NCBI RefSeq assembly: GCF_017876595.1
Contig: NZ_JAGIOG010000001.1
Coordinates: 3,472,001-3,536,000 of the forward strand
Direction: 5' to 3'
Source: Aeromicrobium fastidiosum
GTDB lineage: Bacteria; Actinomycetota; Actinomycetes; Propionibacteriales; Nocardioidaceae
DNA length: 64,000 bases
Made by a program: the position numbers and the translations under genes. Position 1 is the first letter of the stretch; each line of letters opens with the position of its first letter. Shown one piece after another: positions 34,744-60,515 of this stretch. Below the pieces are notes generated by a model. That model was given only the letters and a program-made list of their open reading frames with translations, was not told the origin of the DNA and searched no databases.

Positions 34744-35637
34744 TCAGACCAGGCCGTCGGCCCGCAGCTGCTCGAAGATCTCGCGCGTCGCCTTCGACCG
34801 GTTGAGCGTGATGAAGTGCAGGCCCGGCGCGCCCCCTGCGAGCAGATCGCGGCACAGCTGAGTCGCGAGCTCGATGCCCTTGACCCGGACCGCGGCCTTG
34901 TCGTCGGCGATGGGCTCGATCTGAGCCAGCACCTCGGCCGGCATCTCGGCCCCCGACAGCTCGGCCATGCGGGCGACCTGCGCGAAGTTGAGGATCGGCA
35001 TGATGCCCGGGACGATCGGGATGTCGCTGCCGAGTGCCCGCACGCGCTCGACCAGCCCGAAGTAGTCGGAGGCGCGGAAGAACAGCTGCGTGATGGCGTA
35101 GTCAGCGCCCGCACGCGCCTTGGCCACGAGCACCTCGGCGTCGTGGTCGAGGCTCGCCGCATCGGGGTGTCCCTCGGGGAATGCCGCGACGCCGATCTCG
35201 AAGCCGCCCAGCTGCCTGGCCAGCTCGACGAGGTCGACGGCGTACGTCATGCCGTCGGGGTGCGGCTCCCACGGGGCCCGCGGTCCGCCCTTGGGATCGC
35301 CCCGCAGCGCGAGGACGTTGTCGACGCCGGCGGCGGCGTACTGCTTGAGGACCGACTCGATCTCGCCCCTGGTCTGCGCCACGAGGGTCAGGTGCCCGAC
35401 AGGACGCATCGCCGTCTGCTCAGCGATGCGCGCCGTGATGCGCACGGTGCGCTCCTGGCTGGTTCCCCCGGCCCCGTACGTCACCGACACGAACGTCGGG
35501 TCGAGCGGCTCGAGGTCGGCGATGGTCTGCCACAGCAGGTCCTCGCCGTCGTCGTCCTTGGGCGGGAAGAACTCGAAGGAATAGCTCGGTGCGGGCGCCC
35601 GGAGGGCAGCCACGAGGGAGTGGTCATCGAAAGCCAT
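34744..35637 (-). CDS. metF: Methylenetetrahydrofolate reductase
   Basis: A 297-residue FAD barrel enzyme reducing 5,10-methylene-THF to 5-methyl-THF for methionine synthesis. SFEFFPPKDDDGE near residue 20 is the MetF N-terminal box with the catalytic Glu; SVTYGAGGTSQERTV and LALRGDPKGGPRAPW follow, the latter in the FAD site. VAAFPEGHPDA and YAITQLFF further confirm the family. It is about the size of bacterial MetF. It is transcribed divergently from the polyprenyl synthase from a shared palindromic -10 region and ends 17 bp from the flavoprotein stop. Confidence 0.95.
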   Translation of the reverse strand: MAFDDHSLVAALRAPAPSYSFEFFPPKDDDGEDLLWQTIADLEPLDPTFVSVTYGAGGTSQERTVRITARIAEQTAMRPVGHLTLVAQTRGEIESVLKQYAAAGVDNVLALRGDPKGGPRAPWEPHPDGMTYAVDLVELARQLGGFEIGVAAFPEGHPDAASLDHDAEVLVAKARAGADYAITQLFFRASDYFGLVERVRALGSDIPIVPGIMPILNFAQVARMAELSGAEMPAEVLAQIEPIADDKAAVRVKGIELATQLCRDLLAGGAPGLHFITLNRSKATREIFEQLRADGLV

Positions 35638-35642
35638 GCCGC

Positions 35643-35654
35643 AACGGTACCGTT
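35643..35654. promoter_or_regulatory. Palindromic bidirectional -10 (metF / polyprenyl synthase)
   Basis: AACGGTACCGTT is a perfect 12-bp palindrome in a 23-bp divergent gap. Each strand contains TACCGT (TANNNT): the minus copy at 35644-35649 is 6 nt from the metF ATG and the plus copy at 35648-35653 is 7 nt from the GTG at 35661. Both spacings match the leaderless rule seen elsewhere in the window. It could also be a shared operator. Confidence 0.6.
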
Positions 35655-35660
35655 CAGGAC

Positions 35661-36704
35661 GTGACCTCAGGCGCGGTTGACCCCGACTTCAGAGCCCGGA
35701 TCGATCACACCCTGGTCGAGTTCGTGGAGCGGCAGCGCGGGCTGTTCGCCGCGATGGGACCCGATCTCGACGAGCTCGCCGACGCGGCCGTCTCGTTCGT
35801 CGCGGGCGGCAAGCGCCTGCGCCCGCAGTTCTGCTTCGCCGGCTGGCTCGTCGCCGGCGGCCGTGCCGACGACCCGGCGATCGTCCCAGCCGCGGCGGCA
35901 CTGGAGTGGCTGCAGGGCAGCGCTCTGGTGCACGACGACCTCATGGACGGTTCCGACACGCGTCGCGGCAGGCCGAGCGTCCACCGCGAGTTCGAGGCAC
36001 GGCACCGTGACGGACGTCGTGAGGGTGACTCCGCCGGGTTCGGCGAGTCGGTCGCAGTCCTGCTGGGCGACCTGATGCTGTCGTGGTGCGACGAGATGTT
36101 CCGTGCCAGCGCGCTGCCCACCGTGCCAGCGGCCTTGGCCTTCCTCGACCTGTGCAAGACCGAGGTCGTGGCCGGACAGTTCCTCGACGTCGTCGGCCAG
36201 ACCCGCGCGACGCTCTCGGTCGCCGAGGCGATGCGGGTCGTGCGCTTCAAGTCGGCCAAGTACACCGTCGAACGTCCCCTCCACATGGGCGCGGCACTGG
36301 CCGGGGCGGGCGACGGCCTCATCGCGTCCCTGAGCGACGTGGCCCTCCCCCTCGGCGAGGCCTTCCAGCTGCGCGACGACGTGCTCGGCGTCTTCGGCGA
36401 CCCGGCCGTCACGGGCAAGCCCGCGGGCGACGACCTCCGCGAGGGCAAGCGCACCGTGCTCGTCGCCCGCACCCACGAGCTCACCGACGATGCCGGCCGT
36501 GCCCTCCTGGCCGAGGGGCTCGGCACCGCCGACGCCGTCGCGGCGCTCACCGATCTCATCCGCACCTCGGGGGCGTGGGACGCCGTCGAGGCCGACATCG
36601 CGCGTCTCGAGGCCGAGGCCGACGCGGCGATCGACCGCATCGGCGGCACGGCACCGGAGGTGCTCGGCCCCCTGGCCCTGATCGCGACCCGCCGGAGCCG
36701 CTGA
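35661..36704 (+). CDS. Polyprenyl (geranylgeranyl-type) diphosphate synthase
   Basis: A 347-residue trans-prenyltransferase that condenses isopentenyl diphosphate onto allylic primers. The first Asp-rich motif is DDLMD in VHDDLMDGSDTRRG near residue 95, and the second is DDVLGVFGD near residue 240, matching IdsA-type chain-length enzymes. GGKRLRPQF near residue 55 holds the pyrophosphate-binding Arg. It is most similar in pattern to actinobacterial IdsA/IdsA2 (C15-C20 products). The GTG start is fixed by the TACCGT box 7 nt upstream; a longer reading would run into the divergent gene. Confidence 0.9.
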   Translation: MTSGAVDPDFRARIDHTLVEFVERQRGLFAAMGPDLDELADAAVSFVAGGKRLRPQFCFAGWLVAGGRADDPAIVPAAAALEWLQGSALVHDDLMDGSDTRRGRPSVHREFEARHRDGRREGDSAGFGESVAVLLGDLMLSWCDEMFRASALPTVPAALAFLDLCKTEVVAGQFLDVVGQTRATLSVAEAMRVVRFKSAKYTVERPLHMGAALAGAGDGLIASLSDVALPLGEAFQLRDDVLGVFGDPAVTGKPAGDDLREGKRTVLVARTHELTDDAGRALLAEGLGTADAVAALTDLIRTSGAWDAVEADIARLEAEADAAIDRIGGTAPEVLGPLALIATRRSR

Positions 36705-54726: not shown

Positions 54727-55764
54727 TCAGCCCGCGAGCTCCTGGGTGGCAGCAGCCCACCGCTCGAGCGACGTCGCCGCCGCGCCTGAATCGATCGAGG
54801 TGCGGGCGCGCTCGACCCCCGCGGCGAGACGCTCCACGAGCGTGCCATCGCCACCGGCATGGGCGGCGATCGCGGCTCCCGCATTGAGCAGCACCGCGTC
54901 GCGCACCGGCGAGACCTCTCCCCCGACGACGCGGCGGAACACGTCGGCGTTGAACGCCGGATCGGCACCCACGAGGCTCTCGGGCGGGGCCAGCTCGAAG
55001 CCGAGCTCGGTGGGGTCGAGGACGCTCGCGACGACGGTGCCGTCCGACACCTCCCACACCTGGGTCGTGGTCGTGATCGTGATCTCGTCGAGGCCGTCGT
55101 CGCCGCGGAAGACGAAGGCGTCACGTCCGCGCGACGCCAGCACCTCGGCCATCAACGGTGCCATCCGCACGTCGGCGCAGCCGATCGCCGACGCCGCCGG
55201 CTGGGCGGGGTTGGTCAGCGGGCCGAGGAAGTTGAACGGCGTCGCGATGCCGAGCTCGCGCCGTGGCACCGCGGTGTGCCGGAACGAGGGATGGAACACG
55301 GGGGCGAAGCAGAACGTGATGCCGCTGCGCGCGAAGACGTCGGGGATGCGCGCCGCCGGCACGTCGAGGCGGATGCCCAGCACCTCGAACACGTCGGCCG
55401 TGCCGCTCGAGCTGGACGCCGCACGGTTGCCGTGCTTGACGACGCCCACGCCGGCACCCGCGGCGACCACGGCCGACATCGACGAGATGTTGACCGTCAT
55501 CGACCGGTCTCCGCCCGTGCCGACGATGTCGACGAACCGGCCGGGGATGTCGAGGCGCGTCGCGCGGGCCAGCATCGCATCGGCCAGACCACCCAGCTCG
55601 GCGGCCGTCGGTCCCTTGGCATGCAGCGCGACGGCGAACCCGGCGATCTGCGAATCGGTCGCCGAGCCGGCCAGGATCTGGTCCATGGCCCACACGGTCG
55701 TGGACGCGTCGAGGTCGTGACCGGCCACGAGTGCGGTCAGCACATCGGGCCACGTCTGTGGCAT
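54727..55764 (-). CDS. trpD: Anthranilate phosphoribosyltransferase
   Basis: A 345-residue enzyme of tryptophan synthesis, joining anthranilate to PRPP. The PRPP loop is VGTGGDRSMTVNISS near residue 80, KHGNRAASSSSGTADVFE near 108 is the classic anthranilate/PRPP motif, and FNFLGPLTNPA near 178 with GDDGLDEITI follows. It is of full length. It begins 10 bp after the receiver-like gene, so the two are co-transcribed. No other trp gene is near, which is usual in this group. Confidence 0.95.
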   Translation of the reverse strand: MPQTWPDVLTALVAGHDLDASTTVWAMDQILAGSATDSQIAGFAVALHAKGPTAAELGGLADAMLARATRLDIPGRFVDIVGTGGDRSMTVNISSMSAVVAAGAGVGVVKHGNRAASSSSGTADVFEVLGIRLDVPAARIPDVFARSGITFCFAPVFHPSFRHTAVPRRELGIATPFNFLGPLTNPAQPAASAIGCADVRMAPLMAEVLASRGRDAFVFRGDDGLDEITITTTTQVWEVSDGTVVASVLDPTELGFELAPPESLVGADPAFNADVFRRVVGGEVSPVRDAVLLNAGAAIAAHAGGDGTLVERLAAGVERARTSIDSGAAATSLERWAAATQELAG

Positions 55765-55774
55765 GACCCCCGCC

Positions 55775-56179
55775 TCAGCCGGGCTGCAGCACGCCGCGCG
55801 CGAGCGCGATGACGGCCTCGGCGAGCCGGATCGGCTCGATGGGGTGCGAGACCGCGGCCTCGGCGCGCGACCACGTGGCCAGCCAGGCGTCCTGAGGACG
55901 TCCGGTGATGACGAGCACGGGAGGAGCTTGGAAGATCTCGTCCTTGACCTGGCGGGCGATGCCCATGCCGCCGACCGGCACGGCCTCGCCGTCGAGGATC
56001 ACGAGGTCGATGCCGCCGGCGTCGAGGTGCTGGAAGACCACCGGCTCAGTCGCGACCTCGACGTACTCGAAGGGCGGAAGATCGGGGTGGGGACGGGCCC
56101 CGAGAGCCGAAAGCACCGCGGAACGGACGTCTCGATCATCGCTGTAGACCAGGACACGTAGGGGCTTGTCTGCGCTCAC
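55775..56179 (-). CDS. Atypical stand-alone receiver-domain protein
   Basis: A 134-residue CheY-like domain without an output module. The acidic pair is in [12 protein letters not shown] near residue 12, the phosphorylatable Asp in [11 protein letters not shown] near residue 62 and a Thr in [10 protein letters not shown] near 92. The switch Lys (normally K-P) is replaced: SHPIEPIRL has Ile at that place, so normal phosphorylation signalling is doubtful. The GTG start is set by TACGAT 6 nt upstream; starting at the ATG 15 bp earlier would overlap that box. It shares a divergent promoter with ctaE and is coupled to trpD. The neighbour suggests a role in respiration or redox control. Confidence 0.75.
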
Positions 56180-56185
56180 GAGTTG

Positions 56186-56197
56186 ATCGTACATAAT
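56186..56197. promoter_or_regulatory. Back-to-back -10 boxes (receiver-like gene / ctaE)
   Basis: On the minus strand TACGAT (56186-56191) is 6 nt from the GTG at 56179; on the plus strand CATAAT (56192-56197) is 6 nt from the GTG at 56204. The two boxes abut with no spacer, so the two leaderless genes share one promoter core. Confidence 0.55.
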
Positions 56198-56203
56198 GAA
56201 CTC

Positions 56204-56842
56204 GTGACGACTACCTCGGTGATTCCCGCTTCCCGCCTCCACGGCCAGGAAGGCCGTCCCTCGATGGTCACGGTGGGAACCATCGTCTGGCTGTCCAGCG
56301 AGCTCATGTTCTTCGCCGGACTGTTCGCGGCGTACTTCACGATCCGCAACATCTCCCCCGAGCTGTGGGCCCAGGAGACGGAGGTGCTCAACGTCCCCTT
56401 CGCGACGGCGAACACCACGATCCTCGTGCTCTCGTCGGTGACCTGCCAGTTCGGCGTGTTCGCCGCCGAGCGCGGCAAGGCCGGGCGCTCCGGCAAGCTG
56501 TTCCAGATCAGCCTGTGGGGCATGCGTGAGTGGTTCGTCCTCACATACCTGATGGGCGCGATCTTCATCGGCGGCCAGGCCACCGAGTACGCCGAGCTCG
56601 TCCGCGAGGGCATCACGATCCCCAGCTCGCCCTACGGCAGCCTCTTCTACCTCGCCACCGGGTTCCACGGCATCCACGTGATCGGCGGCCTGCTCGCCTT
56701 CCTGCTCGTGATCGGCCGCACCTTCGCGGCCCGCAAGTTCACGCACGAGCAGGCGATCTCGGCGATCGTCGTGTCGTACTACTGGCACTTCGTCGACATC
56801 GTGTGGGTCGGGCTCTTCGCCACGATCTACCTCATCAAGTAG
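56204..56842 (+). CDS. ctaE: Cytochrome c oxidase subunit III
   Basis: A 212-residue subunit of the aa3-type oxidase with five hydrophobic segments. [25 protein letters not shown] (about 23-47) is the first helix with the conserved Glu, and [20 protein letters not shown] (about 145-165) has FHG and H residues typical of the family, followed by [15 protein letters not shown] (HFVD). The GTG at 56204 is chosen from the CATAAT box and from family length. It opens the ctaE-qcrC-qcrA-qcrB operon, which makes the bc1-aa3 supercomplex. Confidence 0.96.
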
Positions 56843-56935
56843 CCACCCCCGGGCGGGCCCCTAAGGCTTGCCTGACTCCAGAACTTCGGCGTGCCGAAAG
56901 GTACGCTGGCTCCACTTCCAGGAATGAGGTCCGCG

Positions 56936-57766
56936 GTGCGGAAACTGTCCACCAGACGCCGGCATCCACTCGCCGGATTCGTCGCGCTCTTGCTCGGGCT
57001 CGTGATCGCCGGCGGCGCTTACTACGCGTTCGCCCCCAAGCCCGCGGAGGCGCAGGAGGTCACGGCCAACGACGTCGAGGCCGGGCAGAAGCTGTTCCAG
57101 ATCGGATGCGCGAGCTGCCACGGCAAGAACGCCACCGGCATCGAGACGCAGCGCGGCAAGAACTACGGCCCGTCCCTGATCGGCGTGGGCGCTGCCTCCG
57201 TCGACTTCCAGGTCGGCACCGGCCGCATGCCGATGGCGCAGACCGCGCCTCAGGCCCCGGCCAAGACGCCTGAGTACTCCGCCGAGGAGACCCGCCAGCT
57301 GGCGGCCTACATCGCGTCGCTGGCCCCCGGACCGGCCATCCCCGACGGTGAGTACACCGACATCGACAAGGCCAACGTCGACGACGTCCGCGAGGGCGGC
57401 GAGCTGTTCCGTGCCAACTGCACGGCGTGCCACAACTCGGTGGGTGCCGGCGGCGCCATGCCGGGCGGCAAGTACGCCCCGTCCCTCAAGGGCGTCAGCG
57501 AGAAGCACATCGCCGAGGCCATGATCACCGGCCCGCAGCAGATGCCCGTGTTCTCCGACGACGTCATCACGCCTGAGGACAAGCGCAACATCATCGCGTA
57601 CGTCAAGCAGGTCCAGGGCCAGCCCAACTACGGCGGTCTCGGCGGCGGTGGCCTCGGCCCCGTGGTCGACGGCATGTTCACCTGGATCATCGGCATCGGC
57701 GGCCTGGTCATCGCATCCATCTGGATCGGTGCGCACGGGGCGAGAGTGAAGAAGAGGAAGTCATGA
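56936..57766 (+). CDS. qcrC: Cytochrome bc1 complex di-haem cytochrome c subunit QcrC
   Basis: A 276-residue membrane-anchored di-haem cytochrome c. An N-terminal membrane helix (about 14-32, FVALLLGLVIAGGAYYAF) precedes two cytochrome c domains with CASCHG (near residue 55) and CTACHN (near 155), and a C-terminal helix (about 245-268) ends in a basic tail. Replacing soluble cytochrome c, it passes electrons directly to the aa3 oxidase. The GTG at 56936 is favoured by GAGG 6 nt upstream and by RKLSTRRRHPLAG, which aligns to the start of known QcrC; an ATG at 56924 is the alternative. A TACGCT -10-like box is at 56901-56906. Overlap with qcrA is ATGA. Confidence 0.93.
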   Translation: MRKLSTRRRHPLAGFVALLLGLVIAGGAYYAFAPKPAEAQEVTANDVEAGQKLFQIGCASCHGKNATGIETQRGKNYGPSLIGVGAASVDFQVGTGRMPMAQTAPQAPAKTPEYSAEETRQLAAYIASLAPGPAIPDGEYTDIDKANVDDVREGGELFRANCTACHNSVGAGGAMPGGKYAPSLKGVSEKHIAEAMITGPQQMPVFSDDVITPEDKRNIIAYVKQVQGQPNYGGLGGGGLGPVVDGMFTWIIGIGGLVIASIWIGAHGARVKKRKS

Positions 57767-58812
57767 GCGACGAGCTGCAGCCGATCCCCGACACCGAGCC
57801 CATCAAGGACCCGGGTCTGGCCGAGCACCAGTTCCGCCCGCAGGACGTCGACGAGTCGCAGGCCAAGCGCACCGAGCGTCAGATCGCCTGGATGTTCCGC
57901 GTCGCCGGTCTGCTCTTCCTGGGATTCTGCTTCGCCTACTTCCTGATCGACATCGACGACACCTTCCTCGGCTGGTCCGCGCAGAACTTCGCGTTCGGCA
58001 TGACCCTGGGCGGCGGACTGCTGCTCGTCGGCGTCGGCATCATCCAGTGGGCCAAGAAGCTCATGGGCGATCACGAGATGGTCGAGATGCGGCACCCCTC
58101 GGCCTCGTCCGAGGAGGACCGCGTCGCGGTCATGAAGGACATCAACGCAGGCATCGAGGAGTCGGGCTTCGGACGGCGTCCCATGATCCGCAACAGCCTG
58201 CTGGGCTCGATGGCCCTGCTGGGCCTGCCGGCCGTCGTGCTGCTGCGCGACCTCGGACCGCTCCCCCACTCCCAGCGCGAGACGGTCTGGAAGAAGGGCA
58301 TGCGCTTGGTCAACGACGTCACCGGCACCCCGATCAAGCCCTCCGACATGCAGGTCGGCCAGCTGGTCAACGGCCAGCCCGCGATCGTCTACGAGACCGA
58401 CGCCGACGGCGAGGCCGTCCTGCACGGCACCGAGCTGCTGCAGGTCAAGTCGAAGGCGTCGATCATCGTCGTCCGCATGCGCCCCGAGGACGTCACACCG
58501 TCCAAGGGCCGCGAGAACTGGGGCGTCGACGGCATCCTGTGCTTCTCCAAGATCTGCACGCACGTCGGCTGCCCGATCAGCCTGTGGGAGCAGCAGACGC
58601 ACCACCTGCTGTGCCCCTGCCACCAGTCGACCTTCGACCTCGGCGACAACGGCAAGGTCATCTTCGGGCCTGCCCACCGTCCGCTCCCGCAGCTGCCGCT
58701 GGGCGTCGACGACGAGGGCTACCTCATCGCCATGAGCGACTTCCCCGAGATCGTCGCGCCGAGCTATCCAGAACTCGCGCGTGACCAGAAGAAGTTGGAC
58801 AATAAGTCATGA
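57763..58812 (+). CDS. qcrA: Cytochrome bc1 complex Rieske iron-sulfur subunit QcrA
   Basis: A 349-residue Rieske protein with three membrane helices (about 45-68, 75-95 and 145-165, the last after an insertion of about 45 residues) typical of actinobacterial QcrA. The 2Fe-2S site is CTHVGCP (near residue 267) and CPCHQS (near 286), the two boxes separated by about 15 residues. AMSDFPEIVAPSYPELAR ends it. The ATG overlaps the qcrC stop, and the stop overlaps qcrB (ATGA), so the three subunits are translationally coupled. Confidence 0.96.
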   Translation: MSDELQPIPDTEPIKDPGLAEHQFRPQDVDESQAKRTERQIAWMFRVAGLLFLGFCFAYFLIDIDDTFLGWSAQNFAFGMTLGGGLLLVGVGIIQWAKKLMGDHEMVEMRHPSASSEEDRVAVMKDINAGIEESGFGRRPMIRNSLLGSMALLGLPAVVLLRDLGPLPHSQRETVWKKGMRLVNDVTGTPIKPSDMQVGQLVNGQPAIVYETDADGEAVLHGTELLQVKSKASIIVVRMRPEDVTPSKGRENWGVDGILCFSKICTHVGCPISLWEQQTHHLLCPCHQSTFDLGDNGKVIFGPAHRPLPQLPLGVDDEGYLIAMSDFPEIVAPSYPELARDQKKLDNKS

Positions 58813-60515
58813 GCACCACTGAGCAGTACACACCGATCGAGCAGACAGGTGTTGGCAAGAAGGCAGCCGGTCCGGTGGGCTGGCTCGATGACCGCCTCGG
58901 CCTCGCCGGAGTGGCCAAGAAGAACCTCCGCAAGGTGTTCCCCGAGCACTGGTCGTTCATGCTCGGTGAGATCGCGCTGTGGAGCTTCGTCGTCCTGCTG
59001 CTGACGGGCGTCTTCCTGACGTTCTGGTTCCAGCCCAGCATGACCGAGGTCGAGTACCACGGCTCCTACCTGCCGTTCAACGGCCTCGAGATGTCCCAGG
59101 CGTACAAGTCGACGCTCGACATCTCGTTCGACATCCGCGGCGGCCTGCTGATCCGGCAGATCCACCACTGGGCGGCAGCCCTGTTCATCGCCGCGATGAT
59201 CGCCCACATGCTCCGCGTGTTCTTCACGGGCGCCTACCGCAAGCCGCGCGAGATCAACTGGCTGATCGGTGTCGGGCTCTTCTCGCTGGGTCTGGTCGAA
59301 GGCTTCGCCGGGTACTCCCTTCCCGACGACCTCCTGTCCGGAACGGGCCTGCGGTTCGTCGACGGCCTGATCCGTTCGATCCCGCTGGTCGGCTCGTACC
59401 TCGAGTTCTTCATCTTCGGCGGCGAGTTCCCCGGCGACGAGATCATTCCCCGCCTCTACATGGCGCACATCCTGCTCATCCCGGCGATTCTCCTGGGACT
59501 GATCGGCGCCCACATGCTGCTGCTCGTCTACCACAAGCACACGCAGTGGCCTGGGCCCGGACGCACCGAGCAGAACGTGGTCGGCTACCCCATGCTCCCC
59601 GTCTATGCGGCCAAGGCCGGCGGCTTCTTCTTCGTCGTCTTCGGCTTCACGGCGCTCATGGGTGCCCTGCTGCAGATCAACCCGGTGTGGGTCTACGGGC
59701 CGTACAACCCGTCCGAGGTCACCGCCGGTTCGCAGCCCGACTGGTACATGGGCTTCTCCGAGGGCCTGGTCCGCCTGATGCCGGGCTGGGAGAGCACGTT
59801 CTTCAACTACACCTGGAGCTGGAACGTCTTCATCCCCGCCGTGGGTGGCCTGACTGGGCTGTTCGTGGTGCTGGGTGCCTGGCCGTTCATCGAGCAGTGG
59901 ATCACCGGCGACAAGCGTGACCACCACCTGCTGCAGCGTCCGCGCAACGCCCCGTTCCGCACTGCCATCGGCGTCGCCGGAATGACGGCGTACGGCGTGG
60001 CCTGGGCCGCGGGCGGCAACGACATCATCGCCACCAAGTTCCACATGGACATCTACACGCTGACGAACATCTTCCGGGTCGGCTTCTTCGTCTTCCCGGT
60101 CATCGCGTTCATGATCACCAAGCGGATCTGCATCGGACTGCAGCGTGCGGACGCCAACCGCATCCTGCACGGCTACGAGACCGGCGTCATCGAGCGGTCG
60201 CCCGACGGTGGCTTCTCGGAGCGCCACGCTCCCCTGCCGGCTGGTCAGCAGTACACCCTGACTGCCCATGATCGCGTGCCCGTTCTCGAGGCTCCGGCCG
60301 AGACGGACGAGAACGGCGTCGCTGCCCCTCACTCCCGCAAGGAGAAGGTGCGGTCCTGGTTGCAGACGAAGTACTACCGCGACACGCTCGACAAGCCGAC
60401 GGTCGAGGACGTCCACCACGCCGAGGAGCACCTCGGTGAGATCGACGGTCACCCCGTCGAGCTGGGTGACGAGTTCCAGGGCGTCTCGGAGACGGGTGTC
60501 CCCCGGGTCCACTGA
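58809..60515 (+). CDS. qcrB: Cytochrome bc1 complex cytochrome b subunit QcrB
   Basis: A 568-residue cytochrome b that carries quinol oxidation and two b haems. RQIHHWAAALFIAAMIAHMLRVFF (near residue 115-138) holds the first His pair (HH and H), and AHILLIPAILLGLIGAHMLLLVYHKHTQ (about 218-245) the second. PSEVTAGSQPDWYMGF (near residue 300) is the PEWY-like motif at the Qo site, here PDWY as in actinobacteria. The long C-terminal extension after residue 430 is typical of QcrB and is soluble. It is the target of telacebec-like inhibitors in mycobacteria. Confidence 0.97.
   Translation: MSTTEQYTPIEQTGVGKKAAGPVGWLDDRLGLAGVAKKNLRKVFPEHWSFMLGEIALWSFVVLLLTGVFLTFWFQPSMTEVEYHGSYLPFNGLEMSQAYKSTLDISFDIRGGLLIRQIHHWAAALFIAAMIAHMLRVFFTGAYRKPREINWLIGVGLFSLGLVEGFAGYSLPDDLLSGTGLRFVDGLIRSIPLVGSYLEFFIFGGEFPGDEIIPRLYMAHILLIPAILLGLIGAHMLLLVYHKHTQWPGPGRTEQNVVGYPMLPVYAAKAGGFFFVVFGFTALMGALLQINPVWVYGPYNPSEVTAGSQPDWYMGFSEGLVRLMPGWESTFFNYTWSWNVFIPAVGGLTGLFVVLGAWPFIEQWITGDKRDHHLLQRPRNAPFRTAIGVAGMTAYGVAWAAGGNDIIATKFHMDIYTLTNIFRVGFFVFPVIAFMITKRICIGLQRADANRILHGYETGVIERSPDGGFSERHAPLPAGQQYTLTAHDRVPVLEAPAETDENGVAAPHSRKEKVRSWLQTKYYRDTLDKPTVEDVHHAEEHLGEIDGHPVELGDEFQGVSETGVPRVH

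Follow-up and report, generated by a model that had tools for sequence, protein, structure and literature searches.

Bidirectional promoters have been defined by Warman, Grainger and coworkers, and two of their papers (PMC12825309 and PMC10268837) provided the definition used in this study. Such promoters are called when the divergent start sites lie 7-25 bp apart (PMC10268837). In E. coli, the basal activity of five bidirectional promoters was too low for competition between the two directions, and activation in one direction repressed the opposite RNA (PMC12825309). Many closely juxtaposed divergent promoters are also found in M. tuberculosis, in which the -10 element is TANNNT without a conserved -35 and 26% of the genes with a primary transcription start site are leaderless, although leaderless mRNAs are nearly absent from the respiration genes (PMC3898074). 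In C. glutamicum, sigma-C binds the antisense strand of the ctaE promoter and represses ctaE-qcrCAB (PMC7337898). Furthermore, Rv3143 of M. tuberculosis binds NuoD and modulates complex I, and its gene was placed beside nuo in actinobacteria (PMC9274095).

Here, we describe a locus of Aeromicrobium at which ctaE-qcrCAB and a gene of the Rv3143 family diverge from two -10 boxes. Like the bidirectional promoters (Warman et al.; PMC12825309, PMC10268837), in which polymerases exclude each other and the genes are often functionally linked, the site would have opposite-strand starts no more than 25 bp apart. In contrast to them, it does not carry one symmetric common -10 element with starts usually 18, 10 or 23 bp apart, but has two complete abutting boxes with a predicted distance of 25 bp and presumed leaderless starts. 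The juxtaposed divergent leaderless promoters of M. tuberculosis, such as prpD/Rv1129c (PMC3898074), share with it TANNNT, no recognisable -35 and one gene that encodes a regulator; however, those pairs were mapped experimentally and respiratory genes there are rarely leaderless, whereas the Aeromicrobium site belongs to an oxidase operon, has touching boxes and is known from sequence alone. The sigma-C effect of C. glutamicum (PMC7337898) is similar in that ctaE-qcrCAB expression falls when a polymerase or sigma factor occupies the other strand of the ctaE promoter, but it involves a different sigma factor and no divergent receiver gene. Our search found no literature linking Aeromicrobium, the receiver and ctaE. 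We propose with good confidence that two independent, divergent promoters of sigma-A type, both leaderless, have been brought so close together here that their -10 hexamers meet, with no base in common. Such a juxtaposed pair would act like a bidirectional promoter and represents a particularly compact form of a promoter type already known.

Geometry of the proposed divergent promoters

In the window (the whole stretch of 64,000 nucleotides that was analysed), positions 56186-56197 read ATCGTACATAAT and consist of two -10 boxes in direct contact on opposite strands. The features of the locus are as follows.

54727..55764, minus strand: trpD, anthranilate phosphoribosyltransferase (TIGR01245, 334.6 bits), 10 nt past the receiver stop codon
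55775..56179, minus strand: Rv3143-family orphan receiver-only response regulator (NF050825, 205.5 bits), putative leaderless GTG start
56186..56191, minus strand: putative -10 box of the receiver-trpD unit, TACGAT, invariant at 45/45 loci, 6 nt to GTG
56192..56197, plus strand: putative -10 box of ctaE-qcrCAB, CATAAT, 6 nt to GTG, the first of these nucleotides (56198) a conserved G
56204..56842, plus strand: ctaE, cytochrome aa3 oxidase subunit III (NF050119, 317 bits), putative leaderless GTG start
56891..57766, plus strand: qcrC, cytochrome c subunit, open reading frame with start codon not fixed, downstream of ctaE also in relatives
57763..58812, plus strand: qcrA, Rieske iron-sulphur subunit, open reading frame assigned by sequence features and operon order
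58809..60515, plus strand: qcrB, cytochrome b subunit, open reading frame assigned by sequence features and operon order

The order is thus ctaE, qcrC, qcrA, qcrB on the plus strand and receiver, trpD on the minus strand; the open frame of the receiver extends on through ctaE. The preliminary description had reported two abutting boxes, minus-strand TACGAT and plus-strand CATAAT, both at 6 nt from a GTG start, and trpD after the receiver gene. The window sequence agrees with both statements; trpD has the same direction as the receiver gene, and the gap before it is 10 nt.

The two start codons, GTG at 56179 (minus) and GTG at 56204 (plus), are 24 nt apart, and because of this short distance no Shine-Dalgarno leader is possible on either side. 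Both sides have the form of a leaderless promoter, namely NANNNT or TANNNT about 6-7 nt before the start codon. If both mRNAs are leaderless, the start sites are separated by 25 bp, the upper limit of the 7-25 bp range, and each box spans exactly -12 to -7. The key bases -11A and -7T correspond to 56193 and 56197 on the plus strand and to 56190 and 56186 on the minus strand, with none in common. No match was obtained on either side of the locus in a sigma-70 scan with a -35 element, and the hexamers 15-20 nt upstream of each box showed no resemblance to TTGACA.

Conservation and origin of the two boxes

Conservation was examined in 44 Aeromicrobium genomes and one genome of the sister genus (45 compact loci). 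Substitutions were counted by parsimony on a tree from the receiver and ctaE coding DNA, a procedure that accounts for the near-duplicates among the 45 genomes. Both boxes and the compact arrangement were kept at all of the loci. Exact abutment was observed in 43, including one with 7 nt on the receiver side (G029). In the two others (G012 and G036), the sequence is CATCATATGTACGAT, in which TATGAT and TACGAT are separated by 2 bp, and NANNNT is still 6 nt from each GTG despite the 2-bp insertion. Exact contact is therefore not required. The 12 box columns showed only 2 changes in total on the tree, both in the 2-bp-insertion lineage; 11 of the 12 spacer columns changed 6-13 times each (approximately 8.3 per variable column), and the twelfth, the G directly after CATAAT, did not change. 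The third codon positions changed on average 8.7 times in the receiver gene and 6.1 times in ctaE. The ctaE N-terminus and the spacing were conserved in the 45 genomes, and no species of the genus sample had re-expanded to more than 26 nt between the start codons. Because the invariance of the middle -10 positions exceeds the requirement of NANNNT, a further constraint on the 12-mer is possible.

The boxes were also found apart from each other. At 25 loci from other genera of the family, in which the receiver gene and ctaE are usually 0.1-1.2 kb apart, the receiver box was present as TANNNT-N6/7-GTG in 20 and the ctaE box as [CA]ATAATG-N5/6-GTG in 24, the one remaining ctaE locus having CATACT. 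The ctaE box was further detected in the order (16 of 17 loci) and in the class (23 of 31), and its distance to GTG stays the same at class loci with more widely spaced genes. As the boxes occur separately in relatives, each is assigned to its own gene and predates the abutment. The earlier reading of the two hexamers as -10 boxes is supported by this outgroup conservation together with that at the 45 compact loci, and both hexamers conform to the boxes of leaderless genes. On this comparison, the contact is a compaction of two old, apparently leaderless promoters in Aeromicrobium and its sister genus.

The arrangement is not one expected by chance. The pattern CAY-N6-ANNNTN-NANNNT-N6-RTG matched once in the 3.93 Mb genome, at the ctaE/receiver site; the reversed pattern had no match in the same genome, and the forward pattern had none in 100 shuffles of the window. 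The 12-mer of both boxes has no second genome copy at one mismatch or fewer. When 84,980 species were scanned with CAC-N6-ATTATGTACGAT-N6-GTG, 32 stretches were obtained, nearly all from Aeromicrobium or from Nocardioidaceae/Propionibacteriales bins, and four stray matches occurred in unrelated records. The compact arrangement thus appears essentially genus-specific.

The preliminary description had counted a site at metF as a second such arrangement and had suggested a recurrent promoter design.

35644..35653, both strands: metF / polyprenyl synthase divergent -10 boxes, ACGGTACCGT, TACCGT on each strand; ATG at 35637 and GTG at 35661

This site, which persists in most of 30 genus loci, is related to the ctaE/receiver site but not identical, because its symmetric boxes have 2 bp in common (35648-35649) and one of its spacers is 7 nt. 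For recurrence, a scan of 464 kb of the genome looked for neighbouring divergent coding starts, each preceded by a -10 box at the spacing of a leaderless gene. Four close dual-leaderless start pairs were detected, compared with 0 in each of three offset controls: two are in the window, one is 19 bp apart (L200:10400/10419) and one is 44 bp apart. Close dual-leaderless pairs therefore do recur, but exact abutment was confined to ctaE/receiver. At L200:10400-10419 (genome C1:206400-206419), DinB-like and trmB-like genes, named by eye, stand on opposite strands with overlapping -10 boxes.

In 63 outgroup ctaE promoters (loci L048-L130), a GGGGGTC-type element precedes the -10 box at a constant distance of 31-34 nt; GGGGGT was present in 34 of the 63 versus 3.9 expected from shuffles, and a broader match in 44. 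In Aeromicrobium (region 56130-56192 of the window), the place of GGGGGTC is occupied by receiver codons 6-7, and GGGG is mostly kept.

56161..56164, plus strand: GGGG inside receiver codons 6-7, near the relatives' GGGGGTC upstream of the ctaE -10 box

Pro6 of the receiver is encoded by CCC in 33/33 sequences, with CCC making up 33% of the Pro codons elsewhere in the receiver gene and ctaE; the tree shows a single change at the third position of this codon. This pattern, suggestive and not significant on its own, points to GGGG at 56161-56164 as a possible retained upstream element of ctaE. Codon 3 of ctaE (56210-56212), which lies 16-18 nt upstream of the -10 box of the receiver, is ACT in 45/45 genomes; ACT represents 2.8% of the Thr codons of the window.

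The receiver protein and complex I

The receiver consists of 134 amino acids and scored 205.5 bits against NF050825 (Rv3143 family; cut-off 200), with some relatives of the same genus scoring below the cut-off (e.g. 185.1 for G007). Its match to PF00072 was weak (17.9 bits; cut-off 30.2). The phosphoacceptor Asp63 was present in 130 of 130 aligned homologues. The canonical Lys before the Pro in the last switch strand is replaced by His112, so that the protein departs from a canonical receiver, and the 130 homologues carry mostly His at this position (His 104, Gln 11, Tyr 8 and Leu 4). The receiver had been called atypical before, and the replaced Lys bears this out.

The arrangement of the receiver gene followed by trpD and divergent from ctaE was observed at 45/45 loci of the genus, 24/25 of the family, 16/20 of the order and 29/40 of the class; in one family (f7, five genomes sampled), the receiver gene is 1.9-3.5 kb from nuoD instead. 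Accordingly, the protein resembles Rv3143 of PMC9274095 in its NCBIfam family, its receiver-only structure and its invariant phosphoacceptor Asp, but differs in neighbourhood: here and in most of the sampled class the gene adjoins trpD and stands head-to-head with ctaE-qcrCAB, the nuo neighbourhood being found only in f7. nuoD is present in this genome. Another stretch resembling NuoD, with a score under the family cut-off, was also observed (genome C1:596151-597245; two matches in one open frame).

The only complete class genome without NuoD (G258) has no receiver, and neither has C. glutamicum, for which the NF050825 search as a control gave no match; both have kept CtaE. As NuoD and the receiver are absent together in these two cases while CtaE is kept, complex I is the probable partner of the receiver, also where the receiver gene adjoins the oxidase operon.

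Predicted polymerase exclusion and the meaning of the contact

In the proposed mechanism, a polymerase on CATAAT would start at the GTG of ctaE and produce the ctaE-qcrCAB mRNA, and one on TACGAT, facing the reverse direction, would start at the GTG of the receiver gene and produce the receiver-trpD mRNA. With a distance of 25 bp between the predicted start sites, occupancy would be mutually exclusive, and the site would hold one polymerase at a time. The first codons of each gene would then also be the upstream promoter region of the other gene. The boxes, their spacing, conservation and older origin, and the compaction in Aeromicrobium and its sister genus are evident from the sequences; we infer the start positions, leaderless translation and steric exclusion. 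The earlier idea that the two units compete for one polymerase can be retained in part: the spacing argues against simultaneous binding, but competition itself is a steric argument, and the E. coli study detected little of it at basal activity (PMC12825309).

What the contact means for regulation was considered in two ways. We incline, with some reserve, to the view that a deletion joined the two promoters and that selection keeps each box for itself, the abutment having no regulatory role. Boxes and spacings equal to those of the separated ancestors, tolerance of the 2-bp insertion and the minimal intergenic space are all consistent with such neutral compaction. However, no species of the genus sample has moved its start codons more than 26 nt apart again, and codon 6 of the receiver gene and codon 3 of ctaE show suggestive signs of constraint at the nucleotide level, both of which speak against this view. 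The other view, which adds a regulatory switch to the promoter pair, is that strong activation of ctaE-qcrCAB blocks receiver-trpD, so that the supply of complex III-IV and the complex I modulator are opposed; we regard this as tentative. At 25 bp, steric exclusion would be unavoidable, activated E. coli bidirectional promoters do repress the opposite RNA (PMC12825309), and the ctaE promoter of C. glutamicum is reported to be repressed from the opposite strand (PMC7337898). On the other hand, basal activity was too low for competition at all five E. coli promoters (PMC12825309), and the genes are separate in relatives, so coupling is not needed for their function. A still more specific version, in which compaction made a one-at-a-time switch between the receiver (as complex I modulator) plus trpD and the complex III-IV operon, with the ctaE upstream element inside the first receiver codons and the same bases serving coding and promoter function in both directions, seems to us speculative and rather unlikely.

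Two further explanations deny that the hexamers are two independent promoters. The 12-mer, or the perfect 8-bp inverted repeat CACGAGTT-N14-AACTCGTG around it (56177-56184 / 56199-56206), might be an operator for a regulator of both genes. The near invariance of the 12-mer would fit this, but the repeat is particular to this species, its arms vary and the spacer columns change 6-13 times; the 12-mer is without another genome copy at 0-1 mismatches, and its halves stand separately before their own genes in relatives. Hence, we consider an operator improbable. The inverted repeat was rejected as an operator because its arms are not conserved, and the 12-mer as a regulon motif because it has a single genome copy. 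Similarly improbable is one common -10 element driving both directions as a strict symmetric bidirectional promoter with -7/-11 overlapping or paired between the strands, since, despite a start distance at the edge of the 7-25 bp range (PMC10268837), the boxes share no base, are 2 bp apart in two species and are 0.1-1.2 kb apart in relatives.

Taken together, two independent, divergent leaderless promoters compacted into contact would best account for the locus. The ctaE-qcrCAB promoter is old, conserved and apparently leaderless. In most of the class, the Rv3143-type respiratory regulator, studied beside the complex I genes in mycobacteria, has its gene next to the oxidase operon. Furthermore, the class offers a natural spacing series of the two promoters, from more than 1 kb through approximately 100 bp and 2 bp to contact, which suits testing of polymerase exclusion in vivo.
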